From positions 1 through 31,260 of IMG/VR virus record IMGVR_UViG_3300047354_000692: a DNA stretch of 31,260 nucleotides; one strand, given 5' to 3'. The notes beneath the pieces are model-generated. The model was not told where the DNA came from and searched no databases. It was given only the letters and a program-made list of their open reading frames with translations. Numbering within the stretch: position 1 is the first letter of the stretch; every line of letters starts with the position of its first letter. The stretch is from a virus. Shown here one piece after another: positions 9,093 through 30,813 of this stretch. The translations under genes were made by a program, and so were the position numbers.

Positions 9093-9878
9093 ATGCCGGG
9101 TATTTTAGATCTCGATACATATAATCGATCATTACTTTTCGCGAAGTTATCAAAGTATGCTTATTATAACATCAATAGTGCAAAAAAGCAAGCGAAAAAA
9201 TTAGGTTTTACAACAACAGAATTTTATGACCGGGACGGTGCTCAAGCATATAGATTCCAAAATAAAACAGATATGGTTATAGCTTGTAGGGGAACACAGC
9301 CTACACAGTATAGTGATATACAAGCAGACTTAAAGGCAATGCCTGTCGTTGCTGAAACTGTGTCCAGAGTGCATAGAGGTTTTAAGGACGAAGTAGACGA
9401 CTTATGGCCTATGATACTAGAAGATATACAACGTAAAGCAAATGCAAAGAAAACTGTTTGGTTCTGTGGACATTCGTTAGGTGCAGCTATGGCAACTATT
9501 ATGGCTAGCAGATGTTATCATCATGAAGGTATTCCAAATCCGTATGAGCTTTACACTTACGGTAGTCCAAGAGTAGGATGGACCAAGTATTGTACATCTT
9601 TAGGCGTCAGACATATTAGATGGGTAAACAATAACGATATAGTCACAAGAGTTCCATTAAACATAATGGGATATAGACACCATGGCATGGAACACTATCT
9701 AAACACTTGGGGCAATGTTCGTACACTCACAGGATGGCAAAGAACTAAAGACAGGTTTAGAGGTATTTGGAGAGGTATCAAAGTAATGAAAGTTGATAGT
9801 TTCTCAGATCACTCTATTGATGCTTATGTAATGCACATTAAAAAAGCCGCTGAAGGTATGGAAACACCGCAAGTTTAG
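9093..9878 (+). CDS. Class 3 lipase-like alpha/beta hydrolase
   Basis: The 261-aa protein has the lipase (class 3) layout: an oxyanion-side [15 protein letters not shown] (about 66-80), the nucleophile elbow [14 protein letters not shown] with Ser128, [15 protein letters not shown], a likely catalytic Asp in NNDIVTRVP, and His in [11 protein letters not shown]. There is no signal peptide, so it acts in the cytoplasm or is released at lysis. The ribosome site TAAGGAGGAAAG is strong and the gene follows a late promoter and hairpin. It may hydrolyse host lipids late in infection. The stop overlaps that of prs on the opposite strand by four bases. Confidence 0.85.
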
Positions 9879-10807
9879 TCAAACAGTGAACTTACGCTTT
9901 CTTCGTTAGTAACTCTACGAATAGCTTCACCGAATAGTGTTCCAACACTTACTTCACGCAATTTCTTAAGTTTACTAAAGTCCCTAGTGTTGATACTGTC
10001 AGTAACTACTAGTTCATCAAGTACACTCTTTTCTACACGTTTAACTGCTTCTCCACTTAGCACTCCGTGTGTAATATAAGCTCTAACACTTAATGCTCCT
10101 GCATCCATAATAGCTTGTGCCGCACCACATAGTGTTCCTCCGCTGTCTACAATGTCATCTACTAGAATAGCATGCTTGTCTTTCACATCACCAATTAGTG
10201 CCATTACTTCACTAACACCTGCTTGTGGTCTACGCTTATCAACGACAGCAATATCTCCATGAAACATATCAGCAAACTTTCTAGCACGAACTGCACCGCC
10301 TGCATCAGGCGAAACAAAGACAGTGCCTTGATTAACATTAACATGTGATCTAATATCATCTGCAAATACGATACGGCTTGTTAAATCGTCCACTGGAATA
10401 TCAAAGAACCCCTGTATTTGTCCTGCATGTAAATCCATTGTAAGTATTCTATCTGCACCAGCTGTTGTAATTAAATTAGCAACCAACTTAGCAGTAATAG
10501 GTGTACGACTTGCACTCTTACGATCTTGACGAGCATAACCAAAGTAAGGAATAACTGCTGTAATACGACTAGCACTACTACGCTTGGCAGCATCAATCAT
10601 TATAAGCAATTCCATTAAACTATCGTTTACAGGAGTTGATGTTGAGTTACAAATAAAAACATCTTCTCCCCTTATATTTTCTAAAAACTCTACACTGGTT
10701 TCTCCGTCCGCAAAGTTACTTACTTTAGCAGGAACTAATGTGGCAAAACAGTGTTGTGCGATTCTATCAGCTAACTCCGGATTCGCATTGCCAGTTATTA
10801 TCTTCAT
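9875..10807 (-). CDS. prs: Ribose-phosphate pyrophosphokinase (PRPP synthetase)
   Basis: The protein makes PRPP from ribose-5-phosphate and ATP, the entry point to purine, pyrimidine and NAD synthesis. Visible signatures are [41 protein letters not shown] (ATP-binding loop region), [32 protein letters not shown] and the PRPP-binding loop [14 protein letters not shown]. Length (about 310 aa) is normal for bacterial class I enzymes. The frame can be extended to a TTG at 10813; the ATG at 10807 (MKIITGNAN), just after the TGA of the ugd-like gene, is preferred. It shares a transcript with that gene from the sigma-70 promoter at 11636-11664, so it should be an early gene. Confidence 0.93.
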
Positions 10808-10809
10808 CT

Positions 10810-11610
10810 TCAAGTGTCACCCTTCCTTACGTTATTATTATATTGAATAGCTTCTCGTATCAACGACAAGTCTATATCAAAGTCCTGTGCTGTTTTTAGA
10901 ATTGCTTGGGTGTCTTTGGGAAAACAGTGACCTCCGAAACCCCGTTCTGATGTTACTCTGCTGTGGCTATCTCCTATTCGGTTGTCGTCTGTTATTAAGG
11001 GTATGACTGCTTCGTGATCAACTTCAGCGGCTTTGCATAAATCATAAACTTGATTAAAGAAAGCAACTTTTGTAGCTAAAAAGCTGTTACGAAAATATTT
11101 AGCTAATATCAAATCTCTTGGATGTGCGTGTTTAATCTTTACTACTTTGTTGGGTCTGATCATTACTCTTTCTAATATTCTTTCCCAAAAGTAATAGTGT
11201 CCACCTCCCATATAAAAAGTTTCAGTAGCAAGCATATCTTCTACTGCATGTTCTGCTCTTATAAACTCAGGGGAGAATGTAATTGTATGTGTTGGGAACA
11301 AACTTTCTATTTGTTCCCAACCTTCAAGACTGATTGTGCTTTTGATTAGTACCGGAGTTTTTGGATCTGTATCTGTGAGTACATCAAAGACATTTGACAT
11401 ATCACATTCACCAGTTTCTGCTTGCGGAGTACTTACGCAGATTATTACTCCTTCAGCGTTTGTGTCACTGATTTTTAATCCGCATGTAAGATCTTTTCCT
11501 AGTATTCTATAATACTCAGGATCAACTATTTTGGTAGTTACACCACACTCTTTTAGATAGGCTTCGACAGCTCTACCAACATGGCCATACCCTGCAATAG
11601 TTATTCTCAT
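10810..11610 (-). CDS. Short UDP-glucose/GDP-mannose dehydrogenase-like protein
   Basis: The N-terminal Rossmann motif ([18 protein letters not shown]), VIICVSTPQ, an [15 protein letters not shown] segment and the catalytic cysteine loop [11 protein letters not shown] are characteristic of the UDP-glucose/GDP-mannose dehydrogenase family. At 266 aa it is far shorter than the usual 390-450; the C-terminal UDP-sugar-binding domain is absent. Such short versions occur in marine phages. It may oxidise a nucleotide sugar as a dimer with altered binding, or act on another substrate. It overlaps no other gene at its 5' end and is coupled to prs. Confidence 0.85.
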
Positions 11611-13890: not shown

Positions 13891-13943
13891 TGTGGCCGTA
13901 CACTGACGAAGAATCAGATTGGCTAGATGATAAAAAGAGTTGA
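13890..13943 (+). CDS. Possible 17-aa acidic leader peptide before AOX
   Basis: ATG 13890 to TGA 13941-13943 encodes MWPYTDEESDWLDDKKS. It overlaps the DUF1127 stop (TAATG) and the first 17 bases of the oxidase gene. Because the oxidase start lacks its own clear ribosome site, translation of this peptide may deliver ribosomes to it. Confidence 0.45.
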   Translation: MWPYTDEESDWLDDKKS

Positions 13944-14520
13944 CATCGCCGATAGTATAGCGTTTAGGCTTACAATGATGTTTAGATGGTTTGCAGATAC
14001 TTTTTTTGCAAAGCGTTATGGACACAGAGCAGTAGTACTTGAAACTGTTGCCGGAGTACCAGGTATGGTAGCAGGCATGTGGAATCACTTACGTAGCCTA
14101 AGAAAGATGCAACCTGATGAGCGAGGCTGGATTAAGACTTTACTAGACGAAGCTGAAAACGAACGAATGCATTTAATGATCTTCATTGAAATTGCAAAAC
14201 CAAATATCTTTGAAAGATTATTAATTGCATTTGCTCAGCTTGTTTTTTGGCACTTCTATCTAGTTTTATACATTTTCTTTCCAGGCACTGCACACAGGAT
14301 GATAGGATACTTTGAAGATCAAGCTGTTATTTCATACACACAATATCTAGATGAAATAAAAAGTAGCAAGGTTGAAAATATTCCTGCTCCGCAAATTGCA
14401 ATAGATTATTACGGATTGAAAAAAACTGCAAAGTTAAGTGATGTAATTAAAAAAGTAAGAGCTGACGAGCAAGGGCATGCAGATGTTAATCACGGAATGG
14501 CTGACCAAATAAACAAATAA
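13927..14520 (+). CDS. Alternative oxidase (cyanide-insensitive ubiquinol oxidase)
   Basis: The 197-aa protein has every di-iron ligand of the AOX family: Glu39 in VLETVAGVPG, Glu79 and His82 in NERMHLM, Glu130 in YFEDQAV, Glu181 and His184 in RADEQGHAD. It oxidises ubiquinol and reduces oxygen to water without pumping protons, as a monotopic inner-membrane protein. The NERMH form fits AOX rather than cyanophage plastoquinol oxidase. It lacks the long plant N-terminus, as bacterial forms do. It is the last gene of the coupled small-gene operon. Its likely use is to keep carbon oxidation and ALA or TCA flux going, or limit oxidative stress, when the host respiratory chain is disturbed. Confidence 0.93.
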   Translation: MIKRVDIADSIAFRLTMMFRWFADTFFAKRYGHRAVVLETVAGVPGMVAGMWNHLRSLRKMQPDERGWIKTLLDEAENERMHLMIFIEIAKPNIFERLLIAFAQLVFWHFYLVLYIFFPGTAHRMIGYFEDQAVISYTQYLDEIKSSKVENIPAPQIAIDYYGLKKTAKLSDVIKKVRADEQGHADVNHGMADQINK

Positions 14521-14957: not shown

Positions 14958-15575
14958 ATGTTTAGTAATATATTCAAAGACGTTAATATGACGTTGGTAC
15001 GTAACCTAGTCATATTACACACCGCGGTAATTGCACTCAGCAACTACCTTGTTACAATTAGATTTAATGTATTTCCAGGAGCAGACCTACCATTGTTTGG
15101 AGAGTTTCCGTTAGCAGCAGCGGCGTTTACTTTTCCTATTGTTGTAGTAGCTACTGACCTTACAGTTAGACTAGTTGGCAAAGAAGCAGGACGAGCTGTT
15201 GTTGCAATGGCAATTATTCCTGCGATTGTTGCTTCTGTGCTTGTATTATTAGCACTAGGTGATGAACATGCATATCGTGTAGGTTTAGCTAGTGGTACTG
15301 CTTATGCAATTGGTACTATGCTTGACGTATACGTATTCCAACACATTCGTGAAAGAATGTCAGCTTGGTGGATAGCCCCTGCAGTTTCGACTGTTGCCGC
15401 TAACATCATTGATACTTACGCATTCTTTTACACAGCGTTTTATCCTGCACCATGGGTTGCAGACGTAGCGTTTAATAATACACTAACAAAAATTGTAGTA
15501 GGATTAATTGTATTCCTACCTGCATATGGTTTATTACTTAATGCACTACAAAAACGAACAACTAAAGAAGAGTAG
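14958..15575 (+). CDS. YhhQ/VUT-family queuosine-precursor transporter
   Basis: The 205-aa protein has six or so membrane helices and the family pattern FPLAAAAFTFPIVVVATDLTVRLVG near residue 60, VYVFQHIRERMS, and IDTYAFFYTAF. E. coli YhhQ imports the 7-deazaguanines preQ0 and preQ1. In phages the family occurs both with 7-deazaguanine DNA-modification genes and alone. No dpd, que or gat gene lies in this window, so the purpose (tRNA queuosine or DNA modification) is open. The ribosome site AAAGGAATTTC is clear. A strong stem-loop follows the stop. Confidence 0.85.
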   Translation: MFSNIFKDVNMTLVRNLVILHTAVIALSNYLVTIRFNVFPGADLPLFGEFPLAAAAFTFPIVVVATDLTVRLVGKEAGRAVVAMAIIPAIVASVLVLLALGDEHAYRVGLASGTAYAIGTMLDVYVFQHIRERMSAWWIAPAVSTVAANIIDTYAFFYTAFYPAPWVADVAFNNTLTKIVVGLIVFLPAYGLLLNALQKRTTKEE

Positions 15576-15679: not shown

Positions 15680-15994
15680 TTACTTTTTATCGTTAACGAA
15701 ATCATAGAACTTATTAGCAGTTTCTAAAATAGAGTCAACACCTGGAATAGGTGGCATCTCTACAGTTGTTACTATTTCGTTAGTCTCCGAATCTACGTGT
15801 GAAGTCTGTTGCCAGCCTGCAAACTTTGCATTATACTCAAAGTGTTCTTGATCTTTTGCAATTTGTAAGATCTTAGATCGGATTTCATATCCATTTTTGT
15901 TTGTGTTGATTTTTGGCATCATGTCTTTTACCATTTCTGCCATTGCTTGGGTCTGCTTTAAAATGTCAGCACCGTACTTAGTGTCTACAGTCAT
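15680..15994 (-). CDS. Conserved hypothetical T4-like phage protein (104 aa)
   Basis: The sequence contains NGYEIRSKILQIAKDQEHFE near the middle and PPIPGVDSILETANKFYDFVN at the C-terminus, both of which I associate with small proteins of marine T4-like phages. It is soluble with amphipathic helices. A ribosome site (AGGAGAATATA) and a near-consensus sigma-70 promoter at 16028-16056 show that it is an early, separately controlled gene. Function unknown. Confidence 0.75.
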   Translation of the reverse strand: MTVDTKYGADILKQTQAMAEMVKDMMPKINTNKNGYEIRSKILQIAKDQEHFEYNAKFAGWQQTSHVDSETNEIVTTVEMPPIPGVDSILETANKFYDFVNDKK

Positions 15995-16027: not shown

Positions 16028-16056
16028 AATATAGCATAGTATTTAGCACATGTCAA
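16028..16056 (-). promoter_or_regulatory. Near-consensus sigma-70 promoter
   Basis: Minus strand: TTGACA (16056-16051), 17-base spacer, TATATT (16033-16028). The -35 box overlaps the stop of the upstream 62-aa gene, and the ATG of the 104-aa gene follows 33 bases after the -10. Confidence 0.8.
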
Positions 16057-16241
16057 GTGTATTTTCCTGAAAGACGGTCCTCTATATATCCTGCAACTGT
16101 TACTAATTTCTGTATTTCTGCAACATCTGGATGTTCTTCTTTAGCCAAATCTTCAATTAGTTCTGCTATTCCTTTTCTTTCTGATTCTAATAATTCTTCA
16201 ACTGTCCATATTTGTGGATCATCAAATTCTACCTTAGCCAC
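16053..16241 (-). CDS. Small acidic hypothetical protein (62 aa)
   Basis: The start is GTG at 16241, with AAAGGAGAGG five to six bases upstream. The product MAKVEFDDPQIWTVEELLES is acidic and helical, ending VAGYIEDRLSGKYT. It overlaps the DUF454 gene by 13 bases, so it is the third gene of the hemA-DUF454 transcript. No family recognised. Confidence 0.65.
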   Translation of the reverse strand: MAKVEFDDPQIWTVEELLESERKGIAELIEDLAKEEHPDVAEIQKLVTVAGYIEDRLSGKYT

Positions 16242-16648
16242 GCAATCCTCTCCTTTGATTCTACTCTGCGATTGTACTCGTTAACCGACCCCGGATACCT
16301 CCAAGACCATATTGCTACGCCTAACATAAAAATGCCTGAGTAAAGAACTGCCTTGATATTGCCTGTAGTAAACCATGTAAATGCTAATGTACTTGACATT
16401 ACAATTATCATAGCATATTTTGCCCATGTTGGAAAAACTTTCTTTGTGGTCCAATTTGTTAGGAACTCTCCAAACCATGGATGGTTGTATAACCATGCAT
16501 GCATCCGTGGAGAACTCTTAGCAAATGCCCAAGCAGCCATTACTAGAAAAATACTAAATGGTATTCCTGGAGTAACGAAACCGATGTAGGCCATTCCTAC
16601 ACAAAAGAATCCAAACCCTTGATAAAGATATTTTTTAATTAAGTCCAT
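16229..16648 (-). CDS. DUF454 (YbaN-like) inner-membrane protein
   Basis: The 139-aa product matches the DUF454 layout: GFFCVGMAYIGFVTPGIPFSIF, AAWAFAKSSPRMHAWLYNHPWFG, then two more membrane helices. The start at 16648 (MDLIKKYLYQG) has AAAGGA six bases upstream and is preferred over ATG 16669. Family function is not established. It lies directly after ALA synthase and 18 bases from its stop, which suggests, but does not show, a link to heme or envelope physiology. Confidence 0.8.
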   Translation of the reverse strand: MDLIKKYLYQGFGFFCVGMAYIGFVTPGIPFSIFLVMAAWAFAKSSPRMHAWLYNHPWFGEFLTNWTTKKVFPTWAKYAMIIVMSSTLAFTWFTTGNIKAVLYSGIFMLGVAIWSWRYPGSVNEYNRRVESKERIAWLR

Positions 16649-16665
16649 GTTGTTCCTTTCTGCGA

Positions 16666-17859
16666 TCACTTTATAACCTTAACCAATGCGTCTACTAAAT
16701 CGCTCATCATAGCGTCAGTGTGCAAAGGAGTTGGTGCGATCCTTAACCTTTCTGTTCCTTCTGGAACAGTTGGGTAGTTAATGGGTTGTATATAAATCCC
16801 ATATTCATTAAGCAACTCGTCACTAATTTCTTTGCAACGCTTTGCATCTCTTATCATTACAGGAACTATGTGTGTGCTTGCAACATCTAGCACTTCTATG
16901 TCAACTTCTGCTAACATAGACTTTAACTTAGATGCACGTTCTTGATGTTGAACACGCAACTCATTATGATCCTTTAAATATTTAATTGCGGCTAAGGCAC
17001 CAGCACAAATCACAGGACTCATGCTGGTAGTGAATATAAATCCACTAGCTACTGATCTGATTGCGTCTATGACAATCCCTTCACCAGCTATGTAACCGCC
17101 TTGTACTCCAAACGCTTTGCCTAAAGTTCCGTTGACTATATCAACTACACCTTCTTGTCCGACTTCTTCTAGCTTACCGGCCCCTGATTCCCCGTACAAG
17201 CCTACAGCATGTACTTCGTCTAGATATGTTATGGCCCTATACTTTTCGGCTAGCTCGCAAACACCTTTAATTGGACTTACGTCACCATCCATGCTATACA
17301 CAGATTCAAATACAATACATGGTATCATATCGTTAGCTACGCAATCTTGCAATTTTTCTTCTAAGTCGCTCAGATCATTGTGCTTCCATCTTGCCTTAGG
17401 AGCACCACTATGTCTTATACCTTCTATCAGGCTGGCATGGTTCATGTCGTCACTTAAAAACATAATGTTGGGAATGATTTTGCTTAGAGCAACCAGTGTC
17501 CACTCATTGGCAACATATGCACTTGTATACAATAAAGCACTTGAAGTACCATGCAATTTTGCAAGCTCATGCTCTAGTGCTACATGGTAGTGCGAAGTAC
17601 CGCCAATGTTTCGCGTACCACCTGATCCACTTCCTGTTTGATCTAAGGCAGTATGCATTGCATCAATGACGACTTTATTCTGACCCATACCGAGGTAATC
17701 ATTACTACACCAGTTTACAATATTTTTTATTGCATAAGGCCCGTACCAAATTGATTTAGGAAAGTCACCGCGTTCACGAAGTATATCGTTAAACACTCTG
17801 TACCTACCTTGCTGTTTTAGGTCCCGTAGAACCTGTTCAAATGGATCCTTGTCTATCAT
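16666..17859 (-). CDS. hemA: 5-aminolevulinate synthase (ALAS, Shemin pathway)
   Basis: ALAS condenses glycine with succinyl-CoA to 5-aminolevulinate, the first step of heme synthesis in alphaproteobacteria. The 397-aa protein is full length and shows NWCSNDYLGMGQN, GSGSGGTRNIGGTSHYHVAL, a DEVHAVGLYG segment near residue 214, and the PLP lysine in NGTLGKAFGVQGG (Lys248), followed by FTTSMSP. Residues around SVYSMDGDVSPI and the ALAS-type TRNIGGTSH favour ALAS over the related KBL and AONS enzymes. The ATG lies five bases after the box CTTAAATA, so the mRNA may be leaderless. In a phage this could raise heme supply or drain glycine and succinyl-CoA; which, is unknown. Confidence 0.93.
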   Translation of the reverse strand: MIDKDPFEQVLRDLKQQGRYRVFNDILRERGDFPKSIWYGPYAIKNIVNWCSNDYLGMGQNKVVIDAMHTALDQTGSGSGGTRNIGGTSHYHVALEHELAKLHGTSSALLYTSAYVANEWTLVALSKIIPNIMFLSDDMNHASLIEGIRHSGAPKARWKHNDLSDLEEKLQDCVANDMIPCIVFESVYSMDGDVSPIKGVCELAEKYRAITYLDEVHAVGLYGESGAGKLEEVGQEGVVDIVNGTLGKAFGVQGGYIAGEGIVIDAIRSVASGFIFTTSMSPVICAGALAAIKYLKDHNELRVQHQERASKLKSMLAEVDIEVLDVASTHIVPVMIRDAKRCKEISDELLNEYGIYIQPINYPTVPEGTERLRIAPTPLHTDAMMSDLVDALVKVIK

Positions 17860-17872: not shown

Positions 17873-17898
17873 GTAAATATTAATGTAGGAGTATTATT

Positions 17899-18366
17899 GT
17901 GGCAACAGAATGTTTAGTAGTATGTGATGCATGGAAGGAACCTTTACCTCATGATGCTCAAGACTTCCCTCATCTTGCAGATGAAACAAAAGCGTTTGGC
18001 GTTTATCTAAATCAAACACTTAAATTAATAAGATCCCGTTTTGATATTATTCATGTTGCAGATGGACGTGAAATAATGGAGGAGATGGATACAACACAAG
18101 ATAAAATATTCCCTTTCATACAAGATATACCAACCCACTATGACAAATATTACTTGTGTGGATTTCATTTAGGAAGATGTACCCACGGAAAAGCAATGAC
18201 TCTTGCAAAATTAGTAACACATAATCAGATTGGTATTGTGTTTAATTTAAGTTTATTATTTCCTTGTGATGACTACAACAAAATGCGTGAACGTGACTGG
18301 TTTACTTTATACAATTACGTACATGGTCTACAAGATTTTACAACAGATTGTGCTCCTAAAAAATGA
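17899..18366 (+). CDS. Hypothetical protein, weakly isochorismatase-like (155 aa)
   Basis: The start is GTG at 17899 with TAGGAG seven bases upstream. The product begins ATECLVVCDAWKEPLPHDAQ, has a central DIIHVADGREIM strand-turn and YYLCGFHLGRCTHGKAMTLA. The order of an early Asp strand and a later GxxxxxC element is reminiscent of isochorismatase-like hydrolases, but the match is weak and the catalytic lysine cannot be placed. Its stop overlaps the next ORF as ATGA. Function should be treated as unknown. Confidence 0.6.
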   Translation: MATECLVVCDAWKEPLPHDAQDFPHLADETKAFGVYLNQTLKLIRSRFDIIHVADGREIMEEMDTTQDKIFPFIQDIPTHYDKYYLCGFHLGRCTHGKAMTLAKLVTHNQIGIVFNLSLLFPCDDYNKMRERDWFTLYNYVHGLQDFTTDCAPKK

Positions 18367-20333: not shown

Positions 20334-20671
20334 CACTCATAACTTTCGCCAGTTTCACGAAAGAAGTTTTCACTCCAAAACGCTTTGTCATCTATCCAAA
20401 TATCGTAGTTCTCTTTTTCACCTACGCTTAGTTCATGGAACTTTGCACCCCATTTTACTAATTGGTTATTTGTTAGATTGTAATAGTCTACTCCACTAAC
20501 ACAACCTCTAGCTGTCATATATTTAATTGTGTGTCCTGCGTCAAATAGTGCATTTACTTTTGCAATACGATCTGGCATTGGTATATGATTAGCATAGTCT
20601 TTTTTGCCACCGCTGTCAGGTATAATTACTTCTTTACAGATGGTGCCATCAATATCAATTACGTACTTCAA
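20333..20671 (-). CDS. HAD-superfamily phosphatase-like protein
   Basis: Motif I is YVIDIDGTICKE (nucleophile Asp6 and acid Asp8), motif II is YMTARGC, and motif IV is DIWIDDKAFW. At 112 aa it is a minimal, capless HAD fold, close to the phosphatases found with polysaccharide genes and in many phages. Substrate unknown; sugar phosphates are an obvious candidate because it lies directly after PEPCK, with an ATGA overlap. Confidence 0.85.
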   Translation of the reverse strand: MKYVIDIDGTICKEVIIPDSGGKKDYANHIPMPDRIAKVNALFDAGHTIKYMTARGCVSGVDYYNLTNNQLVKWGAKFHELSVGEKENYDIWIDDKAFWSENFFRETGESYE

Positions 20672-21852
20672 TTCAATAATCCTTCCAAAGTTTGTAGTAC
20701 TTGCTCACTGTTATCAGCTCTTCCTGTAACAATAGCATCTTTAACACATTGTCTAGTAAACTCTAACGGAAACCTTGCTCCGTCTTTGTCCATACCTGTG
20801 TTAACTAGATAGACATTAGCTTTATGTGTGTCTATTTTATCCATTAATAAATCGCTATATTCAGAAACTGCCCTAGGCATAAAGGGCGAACCATAGCAAG
20901 GACTAAACAAAGGTTTGATTTCGTTTGTTCCTGCTTCTGTTCCTGGCATTTGACTAGTGTATCCTGTTTCAAAAAACCTACGCACTGTGTTGCCGCTTAT
21001 TTTACTAATAGGTGGAAACATGCCTTTGGCATCCATTGTTAAAAAGAAAATGTTAGTAGGGTGATCAAAATCTGTTGTGTCATATGCATTTTCAACAAGG
21101 TTTAAAGGATAACTTAGCCTAGCATTAGCGGCGCCTGGGTTTTCTTCAACCAAACAATTGTTTGACCTTGCTAGCTCTACTGCATTAAAAATAGTTGGAT
21201 GTGTTTCAGGTGTTAGCCCTTCGCTCTTAGCATAACACCCTGTTTCTATCATATTAACGCCTTCGTAGTTCCATGCTATTTCGTCATCACCAATTAGTTT
21301 GTAATCAGGATCGCTAGACAATGTAGTTTTACCAGTGCCACTAAGACCAAACATAAGATTAGTACTGTCCTTGTAAGTAAATGCACTACAATGCATAGGA
21401 AGTACTTTATGTTCTGGTAATTCAAAACTTACAATACCAAACACGCCTTTCTTAATTTCTCCTAAGAACGTAGTGCCTGCAATTAGCATTACATGTTCGT
21501 CTAGATGTACGTGTATTTTAGGCTTTGACATTTCAATGTCTGTGTTATGTAGTATTGTCCAGTCAGCTGTATATTGTAATGGGTTATCAACCACAGGAAA
21601 CATATTGCGTACAAATTGTGCATGCCTGTCGTCATTTGTTTCTACTCTAAAACAAAGGCCGCAAGTATAAAACACAAGATTATGATTGTATTCTAATTCA
21701 TACATATCGTTATGGAAGTCTTTAAAGTCTTGCTCATTACCAATCTTATTATACTTAGGCCTAGTAAGATCTAATGCTTCAGTACGATGTCCAAAAAAGT
21801 ATTTGTTCTCCGGACTTCTACCTGTCGGGTGTGTCGTTATATTAATATTCAT
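20668..21852 (-). CDS. pckA: ATP-dependent phosphoenolpyruvate carboxykinase, shortened
   Basis: PEPCK converts oxaloacetate and ATP to PEP and CO2, the first committed step of gluconeogenesis. Catalytic elements are complete: TGRSPENKYF (Arg12, oxaloacetate binding), GEIKKGVF (Lys134/Lys135), MHCSA (His154), P-loop GLSGTGKTTLS (169-179), LIGDDE (Asp189/Asp190), NARLSYPL and a late ARFPLEFTR arginine. At 394 aa it is well short of the usual 520-540; about 50-60 residues are missing at the N-terminus and about 80 at the C-terminus, with small internal trims. The gene overlaps GAPDH by 11 bases and the HAD gene by four. A streamlined but probably active phage version. Confidence 0.92.
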   Translation of the reverse strand: MNINITTHPTGRSPENKYFFGHRTEALDLTRPKYNKIGNEQDFKDFHNDMYELEYNHNLVFYTCGLCFRVETNDDRHAQFVRNMFPVVDNPLQYTADWTILHNTDIEMSKPKIHVHLDEHVMLIAGTTFLGEIKKGVFGIVSFELPEHKVLPMHCSAFTYKDSTNLMFGLSGTGKTTLSSDPDYKLIGDDEIAWNYEGVNMIETGCYAKSEGLTPETHPTIFNAVELARSNNCLVEENPGAANARLSYPLNLVENAYDTTDFDHPTNIFFLTMDAKGMFPPISKISGNTVRRFFETGYTSQMPGTEAGTNEIKPLFSPCYGSPFMPRAVSEYSDLLMDKIDTHKANVYLVNTGMDKDGARFPLEFTRQCVKDAIVTGRADNSEQVLQTLEGLLN

Positions 21853-22813
21853 TTATTAATCCTATATGAGAAGCTGTATCGGCCATTCTATTACTGAATG
21901 CCCATTCGTTGTCGTACCAGCATAATACTCTAACTAACTTCCCACAAACAAGTGTACTGTCGGCTGCAAAGATACAACTTTCGTTTGTAGTATTAAAGTC
22001 CATGCTTACTAATGGTCTAGTTTCAAAACCAATAATTCCTTTCATTTCATTTTCGCTTGCTGTTTTTACAATATCATTTACTGTATCAACATCAACATCT
22101 GCTTCGCTATAAAAGTGTAAGTCAATACAACTTACATTCGGTGTAGGTACTCTTATAGCACTTCCAATAATTTTCCCTTCCATTTCAGGTAGTACCGACT
22201 TAAGAGCCTTAGCGGCTCCTGTTGTAGTTGGTATCATACTCATTGCGGCCGCCCTAGCACGATATAAATCATCATGCCTCCTATCGATTGTAGCTTGGTC
22301 GCCTGTGTAGCTATGAATTGTAGTCATTGAACCACGTATGATTCCTAAACTATCATTTAAAACTTTTACAATTGGGGCAAGGCAGTTTGTTGTGCAACTT
22401 GCACTACTAATGATACTATCTTTTACTGATATATCATTATGATTAACACCATAAACAACTGTACGGTCTACATTCTTTCCCGGCGAACTTATGAGAACAG
22501 TCTTTGCACCGTTTTGAAGATGTACACTAGATTGATTCCCATCTCTAAACTGCCCTGTGCATTCTAACAAAACATCAACACCTTTCCAATTTAATAGATT
22601 AATATCCCTTGTGTGTGAGTATGTTGTAGTGTCTTTTAGTTTGCCCTTCCATCTGCCATGCACACTATCAAAATTTAACAAATGATTGTTTACATGTTCA
22701 TCGCCTGTGGCGTTTATTCTAACTAGTTCAAGGTCGTCTCTTTCGTCTGTGATGATTCGGGCTAGGCAACGACCTATCCTTCCAAAACCATTTATTCCAA
22801 CTTTTGTTGTCAC
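21842..22813 (-). CDS. gap: Glyceraldehyde-3-phosphate dehydrogenase
   Basis: Full-length (323 aa) GAPDH with VGINGFGRIGRCLAR, the catalytic SSASCTTNCLAP (Cys140), His167 in TTIHSYTGDQ, RRHDDLYRARAAAMSMIPTTTGAAKA and the C-terminal WYDNEWAFSNRM. The start is GTG at 22813, directly after the aldolase stop. At the end of the second strand the sequence is VRINATGD, with Ala35 where NAD-specific enzymes usually have Asp binding the adenosine ribose; this may allow NADP use, common in anabolic enzymes. It links 1,3-bisphosphoglycerate and GAP, between PEPCK and aldolase in the pathway and in the operon. Confidence 0.95.
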   Translation of the reverse strand: MTTKVGINGFGRIGRCLARIITDERDDLELVRINATGDEHVNNHLLNFDSVHGRWKGKLKDTTTYSHTRDINLLNWKGVDVLLECTGQFRDGNQSSVHLQNGAKTVLISSPGKNVDRTVVYGVNHNDISVKDSIISSASCTTNCLAPIVKVLNDSLGIIRGSMTTIHSYTGDQATIDRRHDDLYRARAAAMSMIPTTTGAAKALKSVLPEMEGKIIGSAIRVPTPNVSCIDLHFYSEADVDVDTVNDIVKTASENEMKGIIGFETRPLVSMDFNTTNESCIFAADSTLVCGKLVRVLCWYDNEWAFSNRMADTASHIGLINEY

Positions 22814-23608
22814 TTATGTACTCGCTTCTGTTATATCCTTTATGTTCATGCTCAGAGTCATATCAAATTCTACATCTGTTTGATGATGAAACAAACCTTC
22901 ACTTAGGGCTCTACTAAAACTTGCAGTCATATTATCATTTTGTGCAAGTCGACGACATGCTTCCTCAGTAGAGTATCCTCCACTTAGACCAACAACTGCA
23001 TGTACACTTTTATGTCCTATAAGGTCTTTATACATATTTGGTTGTTCAGGTAGCGTTAATTTAAGAATACATTTACCATCAAATTCATCTAAACGTTTCT
23101 TAAGTCCGTGTAGCAAGGCTATCTCTAGTCCTTGCTTGTGTTCATGTTCTATTGGAACTTCAGGCTCTACTATTGGCATAAGTTCCCATGCATGTATTTT
23201 TTTAGCTAGCTCAAACTGCTGATCCAATACACTGTCTACTATTTCTTGAGTCTTAACAATACTACGCATCTTAGTACCTACACAGCCTTTGGCAACTGCA
23301 TATGTAAGTATTTCATTAGTATCAAAGTCTTTAAGTGTACCGTCATCTGCACAGCCACTGTCTATTTTTAGATAAGGGTGAATACCTTTTTGTCTAAGAA
23401 TAGGAACCATACCTCTATCAACTGTGTCACGATACAAAATAGCCGCCCATATACTATCATTATTAAAGTCTGGAGAGCTTACCATACGCAAACGCATATC
23501 ATGTACTTTATCCATTTTATCTTCTTCAGTATACGCTTGTCCGTATCGTTCTAGTACTCCTCCTGTTGAACCACCACTGTGATCCATTGCGGCTATAAAT
23601 CTACTCAT
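22814..23608 (-). CDS. Class I fructose-1,6-bisphosphate aldolase
   Basis: The protein joins GAP and DHAP to fructose-1,6-bisphosphate through a Schiff base. It follows the bacterial Fda-type class I family end to end: FIAAMDHSGGSTGGVLERYG, VHDMRLRMVSSPDFN, GTKMRS, LMPIVEPEVPIEHEHK, CILKLTLPEQ (Schiff-base Lys183) and VVGLSGGYSTEEA with NDNMTASFSRAL. The start at 23608 (MSRFIAAMDHSGG) forms an ATGA junction with the HNH gene and has GGAG nine bases upstream, so it is preferred to ATG 23623. Length (264 aa) is slightly under the usual 295. No metal is required, which suits iron- or zinc-poor seawater. Confidence 0.93.
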   Translation of the reverse strand: MSRFIAAMDHSGGSTGGVLERYGQAYTEEDKMDKVHDMRLRMVSSPDFNNDSIWAAILYRDTVDRGMVPILRQKGIHPYLKIDSGCADDGTLKDFDTNEILTYAVAKGCVGTKMRSIVKTQEIVDSVLDQQFELAKKIHAWELMPIVEPEVPIEHEHKQGLEIALLHGLKKRLDEFDGKCILKLTLPEQPNMYKDLIGHKSVHAVVGLSGGYSTEEACRRLAQNDNMTASFSRALSEGLFHHQTDVEFDMTLSMNIKDITEAST

Positions 23609-24114
23609 ATATAAGTTCTCCATGCTTCATGTTTAATTGGCATATCTAATTGTTTTCTTTTTGCAACTAGATCATAATAAGTTGGGGTGTATGGTTTATT
23701 TTTAGGCTTCATACGTGTTTTATTACCTTTGAGGGTATTACATGGACTACAAGCGGCAACCATATTATCCCATTTAGTTTTACCGCCTAGGCTCAACGGA
23801 ATGACATGGTCCATGGTTAGTTCTTTTCTTGTGTGGGTAGTGTTGCAGTATTGGCAAGTGTATAAGTCGCGGATGTAAAGATTAGTTTTTGAGAATCTTG
23901 GACGGCCACGCCGTCGTTGCATTTCTTTCAGCATAACTACCGCAGGAACTTTTGTTTCCCAACTAGGACTGCTTACCATCCAATCATCGTACCAATCAAG
24001 TACAACTACCTTGTCCATCCATACATAAGTAATTGCTTCTTTCCAATTGATAACTGAAAGGGGAATGTAACTAGTAGGCTGTGCGTCTGCGTTTAATAAT
24101 AGTACATCACTCAT
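23605..24114 (-). CDS. HNH endonuclease-family protein
   Basis: The 169-aa protein carries a Zn-ribbon HNH domain: CQYCNTTHTRKELTMDHVIPLSLGGKTKWDNMVAACSPCNTLKGNK. The two CxxC pairs bind zinc and DHV-N-N positions form the nuclease centre. The N-terminal part (LLLNADAQPTSYIPLSVINWKEAI) is the type found in free-standing bacterial HNH proteins, not LAGLIDADG or GIY-YIG homing enzymes. In phages such proteins act in packaging, DNA breakdown or mobility. It is embedded by overlap in the sugar-metabolism operon, so it does not look like a recent insertion. Confidence 0.88.
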   Translation of the reverse strand: MSDVLLLNADAQPTSYIPLSVINWKEAITYVWMDKVVVLDWYDDWMVSSPSWETKVPAVVMLKEMQRRRGRPRFSKTNLYIRDLYTCQYCNTTHTRKELTMDHVIPLSLGGKTKWDNMVAACSPCNTLKGNKTRMKPKNKPYTPTYYDLVAKRKQLDMPIKHEAWRTYI

Positions 24115-28200: not shown

Positions 28201-28837
28201 TTGGGTAGAAACAGATCTAAGTGTTGAAAATGCATTTAGTGTAGACCCTCGAGAATATCTACGCAATCACCCTGAGTTTATACAAATAGCCACAGGCGGA
28301 GCAACTGTTTGGCAATGCGATCATAAATTATTACTTACAAATGAGTTTACTGCATTACTTAACAACTATTTTGAATGTAACATTACCGGTGTACTTGTAT
28401 TTCATAGGAAAGCAGGATATCAACACCCTGGTGCTCATATAGATGTAGATCCACAAGAGGGATTAAATCTTCCTGTAACTTTAAGCTACAACTGGGTACT
28501 AGAGGAAGATAATAATCCTATGGTGTGGTACAAGCCCTGGTGGGATCCTGAAAACATGGATCAAGCTAGCCAAGCGGCTAAAGGACAACTACCTTTCCCT
28601 GGGCTAGAATCTAGTAGCCCAGATGCAGGCTCAATGACTTATCAGGAAACACCTTGTGAACTACTAGAACGTGATAGCGAACACTGTCTTAGTCATAAAG
28701 TAGTTACTGTATGTAGAACTAACGTTCCGCACAATGTTGATATGATATCTGATAAAGATAGATGGTGTGTTACTGCCCGCAGTTGGGGCGATCAAGACCC
28801 TATGTGGTCACAAGTATATAACAGTCTAGTTAATTGA
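28193..28837 (+). CDS. 2-oxoglutarate/Fe(II) oxygenase-like protein, paralogue C (214 aa)
   Basis: The third paralogue: MRNWVETDLSVENAFSVD, FHRKAGYQHPGAHIDVDP (His82, Asp84), SYNWVLEEDNNPMVWYKPWW and RTNVPHNVDMISDKDRWCVTAR. Between the halves it has its own insertion (DQASQAAKGQLPFPGLESSS). Conservation of the metal triad and the Arg in all three copies shows that none is an obvious pseudogene. It converges on and overlaps the radical SAM gene by 12 bases at their 3' ends. Confidence 0.75.
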   Translation: MRNWVETDLSVENAFSVDPREYLRNHPEFIQIATGGATVWQCDHKLLLTNEFTALLNNYFECNITGVLVFHRKAGYQHPGAHIDVDPQEGLNLPVTLSYNWVLEEDNNPMVWYKPWWDPENMDQASQAAKGQLPFPGLESSSPDAGSMTYQETPCELLERDSEHCLSHKVVTVCRTNVPHNVDMISDKDRWCVTARSWGDQDPMWSQVYNSLVN

Positions 28838-30445
28838 TGCCCACAGATCGCTAAGGCGTCTGTTATGAGTACACATTTCAAAATGCTTGTTCCTAGCTAG
28901 ATCTAAAAAGCCTGGTCCTGCTCCGTTTTGTTTAAGTGCTTCAAGTGATTGAATTCCTTCAAGTTTACGTCTTATATAAGGTACAACTATTTCATTATGC
29001 TGTTGTCCATTATGAATATTCCACATCATAGGACGTAGCTTTAATTCTAATAGTTCTTTGGTGCTTTTAACAAAAGGAAGATAGTTTAACAACTGAAAAC
29101 TACTAACTAACTGTTCATTCCTACAAAAGTCACCATCTTGCCATTCTTTTACAAATTTGCTTGCTTGTCCTATGTCAGCCCAATCAGCTTCCCAATATAA
29201 ACTTTTGTTATCAAACTTATGTTGGGTTCCTCCTGCTTCTCTATCATAGTAACTATGTATTTCTGCTAGACGCACAGGATCGGTTATTTCTCTATAACCA
29301 TGCTGACGCCATTCTTTTGAAAAAACGCTAGTGGTTGCTGTATTGGTATCTAAGCTAATCTCTAGAGGCCACCAATCCCAATTTTGGTCTCCCCAATTTT
29401 CTCTAAGCCAATCTTCTGAACGTTGCCAACTGTCTGGAGTTTCATGTGGTAACCCTGCAATCATTCCACAACTGCCTCTGTATAACCCAAGCTCACCCAT
29501 CATATGCTCACGCATATCCATTAGACCTTGTTTGATACGCTTAGACGGCATACCTTTGGCTACTGCTTTACCTGCGTCATCGTTAAATGTTTCTACACCA
29601 TAAAAATGATTCCATACCCTAGCTCTACTGAGTAGTTTAAGCTGTTGTGGTTTCGCAATTGTTAGATCCATACGTATAAAGCAAGCAAAGTTTGGTTCAA
29701 AAGGTAGGCTCTGAACAACATCTCCTAACATTTCTAGCTTGCTTTCCCTATCGTTTAGTGTATCATCAGCTAGTATATAATTAGTAGTGCCAAAGCGTTC
29801 ATAGTTATCCATTAGCTCTGCACGTAGTAGTTCTTCTTCAGTTGATGTATCTTCTTTGACGCCTAAGAATGCATAGTTACAGTATTTGCAACGAAACTTA
29901 CACCCACGACTGAGTTCAACAGTTAGCATTTCATAGGGTTGAATATAGTCATCATCTCTATAGTCTATGCTGTAGTCACCTAGGTTCATAGCTTGATAGT
30001 CTGTGTTGCAGTCAATAAACAGCCCACCTAGAATATCTTTGCCTTTGGGTTTAGGACCATTGTTGAACAGCCAGTTTACTGTGTCAGGAACTGCTTTTTC
30101 AGCATATCCAAACAACATAGCATCCATGCCTAAGTCAAGCTGAAAGAACTGCTGTCCGCCTGCGATATATTTACGTCCTGGGTAAGCCTCTTTGAGTTGT
30201 TCTACAAACTGTTTTGCCCACCATGGTTTCATCCATGTGTAGGATATAGCAAACAATACAGTGTCCTCACCTACAATAGCATCAAGATACCTTCGTAGAT
30301 CAGCTTCTGGCCAGTCAGCTGCCCAATCAACCACAGTTGCCCTCCAGCCCATACTTTCTAGTTGATTAGCAAACCTATACGCACCTGAAGTTCTTCTTTT
30401 GATTTCTTGATTGCTGTTAAAAATTACACAGTGTTTTATATTCAT
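28826..30445 (-). CDS. Radical SAM protein with N-terminal Rossmann (B12-binding-like) domain
   Basis: The start is ATG 30445 (MNIKHCVIFNSNQEIKRR); the upstream in-frame ATG at 30556 lies across the divergent promoter region. Residues 1-130 form a Rossmann-type domain (TVLFAISYTWMKPWW, KYIAGGQQFF) without a clear DxHxxG cobalamin motif. The radical SAM core begins LTVELSRGCKFRCKYCNYAF with Cys182, Cys186 and Cys189 binding the [4Fe-4S] cluster. Length is 539 aa. The product modified is unknown. GATAAATA lies seven bases from the ATG, so the mRNA is likely leaderless. Its cluster may be supplied by the phage Nfu protein. Confidence 0.88.
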   Translation of the reverse strand: MNIKHCVIFNSNQEIKRRTSGAYRFANQLESMGWRATVVDWAADWPEADLRRYLDAIVGEDTVLFAISYTWMKPWWAKQFVEQLKEAYPGRKYIAGGQQFFQLDLGMDAMLFGYAEKAVPDTVNWLFNNGPKPKGKDILGGLFIDCNTDYQAMNLGDYSIDYRDDDYIQPYEMLTVELSRGCKFRCKYCNYAFLGVKEDTSTEEELLRAELMDNYERFGTTNYILADDTLNDRESKLEMLGDVVQSLPFEPNFACFIRMDLTIAKPQQLKLLSRARVWNHFYGVETFNDDAGKAVAKGMPSKRIKQGLMDMREHMMGELGLYRGSCGMIAGLPHETPDSWQRSEDWLRENWGDQNWDWWPLEISLDTNTATTSVFSKEWRQHGYREITDPVRLAEIHSYYDREAGGTQHKFDNKSLYWEADWADIGQASKFVKEWQDGDFCRNEQLVSSFQLLNYLPFVKSTKELLELKLRPMMWNIHNGQQHNEIVVPYIRRKLEGIQSLEALKQNGAGPGFLDLARNKHFEMCTHNRRLSDLWASIN

Positions 30446-30452
30446 TATGCAA

Positions 30453-30471
30453 TATTTATCGTCGATAAATA
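30453..30471. promoter_or_regulatory. Palindromic divergent late promoter pair
   Basis: TATTTATCG-T-CGATAAATA is a perfect 19-base inverted repeat. GATAAATA on the minus strand (30460-30453) serves the radical SAM gene and GATAAATA on the plus strand (30464-30471) serves the gene at 30499. The two boxes are only three bases apart, so simultaneous use would be sterically hard. Confidence 0.7.
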
Positions 30472-30498
30472 CTATACAACCAGCAAAGAGGTATTTTA

Positions 30499-30813
30499 AT
30501 GAGCGATGATACAACCACAGTAGACGAAGTAGATATTCAACAAGTAGTAGAAGCATTACTAAACATCTGTGGGCAGGCCGCAGAAATGCAACTAGACGAA
30601 GAAGCTAGAACTGCTATATACGACATGTGTGATGCTGTAGCGGCATTCCATGATATTCCACGTTTTGATGCTGTTATTGAACAAGACGAAGAAGGCAACA
30701 GTCGAGTCAGCTATTATGGCTCAGAGGTAGTAGCAAACATGGAAGACAAACCCAAAACCTCACTCAAACTAGTGGTCAACAACGGTGATGATGATCCAGA
30801 AACCATACACTAA
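30499..30813 (+). CDS. Small acidic phage protein (104 aa)
   Basis: MSDDTTTVDEVDIQQVVEAL starts an acidic, helical protein with a central AFHDIPRFDAVIEQDEEGNS and SYYGSEVVANM region and an acidic end DDDPETIH. AGAGGTATTTT upstream is the ribosome site. The last residues resemble the TTIH end of the next gene, and both have the same promoter-to-start layout, so the pair may be distantly related or share a C-terminal signal. Confidence 0.65.
   Translation: MSDDTTTVDEVDIQQVVEALLNICGQAAEMQLDEEARTAIYDMCDAVAAFHDIPRFDAVIEQDEEGNSRVSYYGSEVVANMEDKPKTSLKLVVNNGDDDPETIH

Follow-up and report, generated by a model that had tools for sequence, protein, structure and literature searches.

In the genome of an aquatic phage, a gene for 5-aminolevulinate synthase (ALAS), the enzyme that carries out the first step of heme making from glycine and succinyl-CoA, is followed at once by a gene for a small inner-membrane protein of the DUF454 family. 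The pairing of these genes across viral genomes is almost certainly non-random, and together they probably make up the core of a module for heme and iron in phages, a reading to which we give a probability of roughly 0.6. The pair was found in a window of 31,260 bases, i.e., the whole stretch of DNA analysed, which is a virus record of IMG/VR (IMGVR_UViG_3300047354_000692). Why phages carry heme genes was considered enigmatic by their discoverers, who raised iron supply as one possibility (PMC11480375), and this question can now be approached concretely through a conserved membrane partner whose family is regulated by iron. Conversely, through a natural pair in which one member is an enzyme of known reaction, the function of DUF454 can be put to the test, and this family occurs in E. 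coli and in many of the alphaproteobacterial genomes sampled.

Three IMG/VR scans, with loci ordered by how similar they are to three ALAS seeds, provided 235 viral ALAS loci, which were grouped at 90% ALAS identity into 102 clusters. Genes were called mechanically and many of the contigs are fragments. DUF454 is encoded within 10 kb of ALAS in 161 of these loci and in 77 of the clusters; among the 25 clusters with no local DUF454 gene, the flanks are too short to judge in 15 and adequate in 10, and all five ALAS records of at least 50 kb that lack a local copy carry one elsewhere in the record. The preliminary description of this DNA had read the adjacency as a hint of a functional pairing, with a genome-context search for such pairs as the check; in that search the pairing turned out to recur far beyond chance and in two distinct genomic settings. 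The first, to which the window belongs, places ALAS beside an HNH gene, often with YqgE close by (48 clusters), and the second places it beside ribonucleotide reductase genes, with ThyX present where checked (29 clusters). At up to 5 kb from ALAS, DUF454 is encoded in 75% of the former clusters and in 100% of the latter, and no other family is frequent near ALAS in both settings. At this distance the two have otherwise almost disjoint gene families: the next families common to both occur in 27/41% and 25/24% of the clusters, and the remainder are specific to one setting or the other. The arrangement of the pair also varies, since DUF454 is encoded on the same strand and at most 50 nt downstream of ALAS in 34 clusters and elsewhere overlaps ALAS, is spaced from it, precedes it in reversed order or is encoded on the other strand; mapped onto the ALAS tree, the arrangement has changed at least 12 times. 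The distances among paired ALAS and DUF454 proteins correlate with an r of 0.54 (best of 999 permutations, 0.08). Closely related loci were grouped into clusters, which corrects for descent in part, and independent retention events are far fewer than loci. The likely history is descent from a single ancestral ALAS-DUF454 pair, and the fact that this pair has been kept through changed settings and gene orders fits the prediction of selection on a joint function. That DUF454 stays with ALAS across widely different phage genomes points to a shared task in heme or iron metabolism, a task of which the literature searched contains no description. DUF454 genes also occur in phage contigs where ALAS was not seen; in 11 records of such phages, glutamyl-tRNA reductase of the C5 pathway, as a possible counterpart, was not found.

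The ALAS gene of the window (16666..17859, minus strand) is complete and encodes 397 amino acids, and its identity is near certain from sequence comparison. It matches the ALAS model TIGR01821 with 549 bits in a profile search (cut-off 338.55), and the closest solved structures are the bacterial ALAS 7x98 and 2bwn. All 15 PLP- and substrate-contacting residues checked are present, 14 of them identical to Rhodobacter 2BWN and one changed (S277 to T); they include K248, D214, H217, H142, T83, R21, N85, S189 and R374 in Rhodobacter numbering, and the 15 are invariant among 234 viral ALAS. K248 is the Schiff-base lysine, with the roles of the 15 residues taken from the 2BWN structure. Related acyltransferases were tried and rejected: the KBL model NF005394 reaches 325 bits (cut-off 460) and the AONS model, bioF, 319 bits (cut-off 426), the models for serine palmitoyltransferase (SPT) also score under their own cut-offs, and the active-site residues rule out an AONS, KBL or SPT reading as well. 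The initial reading of a full-length, true ALAS with an intact PLP lysine, rather than an AONS or KBL, is thus borne out, and the coordinates then given for the gene pair are correct. The CP heme-regulatory dipeptide is absent from the protein. Compared with the related locus L006, dN/dS is 0.155 for ALAS and 0.088 for DUF454, and both genes are therefore under purifying selection. Just 5' of ALAS lies a weak promoter-like site, TTGCCA-17-TAATAT (17877..17905, minus strand; 9/12 consensus), which would leave a very short leader; its assignment as the ALAS promoter is tentative, and such matches are expected by chance.

The DUF454 gene (16229..16648, minus strand) encodes 139 amino acids counted from the ATG, and the protein matches PF04304 over profile positions 1-114 of 115 with 96.3 bits (cut-off 35.1). 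The open reading frame opens at an in-frame GTG at 16669 that overlaps the ALAS stop and represents an alternative start. The ATG at 16648, which lies 17 nt past the ALAS stop, is the likely start because it is preceded by a good ribosome-binding site, the Shine-Dalgarno-like AGAAAGGAA; the spacing of 18 bases reported before is essentially right. ALAS and DUF454 are probably co-transcribed. The AlphaFold2 (AF2) model of DUF454 is confident and helical (pLDDT 92), and searches of this model against PDB and BFVD with Foldseek and VIA-align gave no meaningful match. Two of its histidines, H50 and H56 when counted from the ATG, are conserved. Like E. coli YbaN, the protein belongs to the PF04304 family of small multi-helix inner-membrane proteins, but it scores 65.4 bits against the YbaN equivalog model NF007818 (cut-off 163) and is thus a member of the family rather than a YbaN equivalog; moreover, it is coupled to ALAS, whereas ybaN stands alone under Fur. 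Downstream, an ORF of 62 amino acids with no assigned function (16053..16241, minus strand) shares 13 nt with the end of DUF454, and its relatives sit directly after DUF454 in L006 and L020. The next gene on this strand (15680..15994) encodes a conserved phage protein of 104 amino acids, also functionally unassigned, which is found near ALAS in 52% of the clusters of the HNH setting; a strong promoter-like site that belongs to this gene alone, TTGACA-17-TATATT, is located at 16056-16028.

Links of both genes to heme breakdown and to iron come from related phages and from the literature. Of 42 viral records that carry ALAS or DUF454, 20 encode heme oxygenase, among them all three large DUF454-only records; two of these three have the same gene, so that they count as two independent cases. 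A heme oxygenase query of a phage collection, by a search method that differs from the one behind the 20/42 count, matched 19 of 50,697 records, and DUF454 was found in none of these 19; heme oxygenase without DUF454 is exemplified by the Mosig pelagiphage and by cyanophages. An IMG/VR scan seeded with heme oxygenase yielded two loci only. In the contigs L089-L093, which are mutual near-copies and in which ALAS was not seen, DUF454 overlaps a gene for a ferredoxin-dependent bilin reductase (PF05996), and in L124 it comes after the HSP20 gene found elsewhere in front of heme oxygenase. Neither heme oxygenase nor pcyA/X was found within the 31-kb window. Because the 52.6-kb contig G232, near-identical to the window phage (99.9% over 21 kb), breaks off within a heme oxygenase gene that the usual HSP20 gene precedes, the window phage probably carries heme oxygenase outside the window. 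Among bacteria, the DUF454 gene of E. coli, ybaN, is a conserved member of the Fur regulon (PMC7157518; PMC10164565; PMC3136457) that has been grouped with iron-acquisition genes (PMC7157518), a DUF454 gene of Avibacterium is upregulated under iron restriction (PMC7970244), and T11SS loci are enriched in DUF454 as well as in heme oxygenase domains (PMC12282271).

In the module that we propose, the ALAS of the window would push the supply of the heme precursor 5-aminolevulinate during infection. Since the enzyme is without CP-type heme regulatory motifs, host feedback by heme should not act on it, which would enable infected cells to hold or raise the flow of heme precursors. DUF454 would serve the same pathway at the inner membrane. 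Its most likely contribution there is to manage iron, heme or a tetrapyrrole precursor, and the increased flux would then yield usable heme instead of toxic or wasted intermediates. With heme oxygenase and bilin reductase, present in many relatives and probable for the window phage, both the provision of heme and the liberation of its iron would be under phage control. What DUF454 does at the molecular level in this scheme is a best guess: it may deliver iron or it may export a precursor. A broader version, which we consider possible at less than even odds, is that DUF454 is a general component of inner-membrane heme/iron homeostasis, e.g., a carrier of iron, heme or tetrapyrrole, and that the phage ALAS-DUF454 pair, as a minimal and self-contained cassette for heme supply, shows what this family does.

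A more specific role in iron supply, in which DUF454 would help to take up or deliver iron, or the iron of heme, at the inner membrane and so feed heme synthesis and the many iron enzymes of the phage, is a serious candidate that nevertheless falls short of an even chance. Membership of the Fur regulon and induction by iron restriction agree with it, as do the alternative oxidase (AOX), NifU-like Fe-S protein and radical SAM protein encoded in the window and the heme oxygenase of many relatives, but most alphaproteobacterial DUF454 genes are without an iron-transport neighbourhood and the predicted structure has no recognisable transporter fold. In two Pfam surveys around alphaproteobacterial DUF454 genes, two FecCD, one NapB and one catalase were encountered, with no clear heme/iron enrichment. 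It is unlikely that DUF454 acts instead as a vent that exports 5-aminolevulinate or porphyrins and so shields the infected cell when an ALAS free of feedback makes too much. Direct coupling to the enzyme at the entry point of the pathway would suit such a vent, and so would the helical, membrane-type architecture of the model; the absence of CP regulatory motifs from ALAS would create the need for it, a need that we infer. Nonetheless, the Fur control of E. coli ybaN (PMC7157518) fits iron limitation at least as well, and 139 amino acids is small for a transporter unless it is oligomeric.

The linkage itself could have arisen with no shared function if ALAS and DUF454, each useful in its own way, had been inserted at one shared hotspot and passed on together thereafter. 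Part of the linkage is possibly inherited, as the sampled viral ALAS form one clade; the HNH/YqgE setting is common to many loci, and some contigs have DUF454 with ALAS not seen. Such a hotspot would, however, have to account for a pair that is kept in two settings where no other family is common at comparable frequency, that occurs in several gene orders and on either strand, and that in large ALAS records persists as a non-adjacent DUF454 gene elsewhere, and we regard it as unlikely. That ALAS drains succinyl-CoA and glycine and thereby rewires central metabolism, with heme not the point, is improbable, because the PEPCK, GAPDH and aldolase homologues encoded by the phage and an AOX gene that overlaps ALAS in another clade, which would favour it, are set against the co-occurrence of heme oxygenase and bilin reductase and a partner from an iron-regulated family, both of which tie ALAS to heme.

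The heme/iron module built on ALAS and DUF454 extends a system already described. Wegner et al. (2024) reported phage alaS genes that occur alone or with genes for heme oxygenase and bilin reductase, and a freshwater phage copy that complements an E. coli auxotroph and makes 5-aminolevulinate (PMC11480375). The window ALAS falls in the viral ALAS clade and lies on a phage contig, and thus counts as a valaS auxiliary metabolic gene; it resembles valaS (PMC11480375) in its intact catalytic residues, its position in a viral clade apart from the sampled bacteria, the absence of CP-type motifs and the heme oxygenase and bilin reductase genes of the same phage group. The difference is that the conserved unit is here the ALAS-DUF454 pair, with no heme oxygenase in the window and the end of one in the near-identical contig. 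Neither DUF454 nor alternative oxidase is mentioned in the text of PMC11480375, and a search for DUF454 and phage in the main texts of the open-access literature found no relevant paper. Phage ALAS as a heme-boosting auxiliary gene has therefore been known since 2024, and the DUF454 partner is the new part within the open-access literature searched. The hemO-pcyA/pcyX cassettes of cyanophages and pelagiphages likewise consist of phage heme-pathway genes, and in relatives an HSP20 gene stands, in comparable fashion, before heme oxygenase and bilin reductase; in contrast, neither DUF454 nor ALAS was found in the hemO-pcyA/pcyX isolate phages of the phage collection searched.

The pair was probably assembled in phages. 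All sampled viral ALAS form one clade, which a quick tree separates from 16 bacterial sequences by a branch with support 100, and bacterial relatives of viral ALAS are at most 58% identical. An origin of the pair in bacteria was considered and rejected, since DUF454 was found within 8 kb of ALAS in 0 of 80 bacterial loci (the best 80 listed), despite the presence of DUF454 above cut-off in 40 of 142 alphaproteobacterial genomes. INPHARED matches to ALAS or DUF454 are below 60% identity, those annotated being KBL, BioF or YbaN, and at least one matching record is a bacterial contig of Salmonella. The viral nature of the group is supported by terminase genes in relatives that bear the ALAS-DUF454 pair and by T4 gp23 in one such relative. 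The assumption that ALAS constrains the host to alphaproteobacteria did not hold, as viral ALAS form a clade separate from the sampled bacterial enzymes and ALAS phages have been assigned to an alphaproteobacterium and to a gammaproteobacterium (PMC11480375); ALAS thus does not fix the host.

The window and its relatives encode further genes of metabolic interest. AOX, a heme-free di-iron quinol oxidase (13927..14520, plus strand; PF01786, 249.8 bits), occurs near ALAS in 25 of the 235 loci, and in a marine clade (L314, L329, L343, L346, L353-L356) it lies directly 3' of ALAS, mostly with a 4-nt overlap; no description of a recurrent ALAS-AOX pairing was found in the literature searched. A queuosine precursor transporter of the YhhQ family (TIGR00697) is encoded at 14958-15575 (plus strand). 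Between 18623 and 19620 (plus strand), a shortened class II tRNA-synthetase-like gene with a weak AsnRS/AspRS match is followed by a tRNA-Gly (anticodon ACC) whose length is unusual and then by a glutamine riboswitch (RF01739, 52.7 bits). At 20668-23623 (minus strand), genes for a fructose-bisphosphate aldolase homologue, a type I GAPDH and a short ATP-type PEP carboxykinase (394 amino acids) are adjacent and belong to the gluconeogenic line; GAPDH scores one bit below the equivalog cut-off, and all three genes have diverged from the curated equivalogs. Also on the minus strand are genes for the NifU-like Fe-S protein (1108-1461), a PRPP synthase (9875-10813), a UDP-glucose/GDP-mannose dehydrogenase homologue (10810-11610) and the radical SAM protein (28826-30556). 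In the ribonucleotide reductase setting, 38% of the clusters have, no more than 5 kb from ALAS, a gene that by sequence is likely to encode serine hydroxymethyltransferase (L323:7742-8902 and related loci); it could supply glycine, the ALAS substrate, together with one-carbon units. Finally, ALAS is encoded on the very large viral contigs (237-400 kb) of L392 (353 kb), L397 (400 kb), L009 and L010, whose size suggests that they belong to jumbo phages; in the records of the last two, terminase was confirmed.
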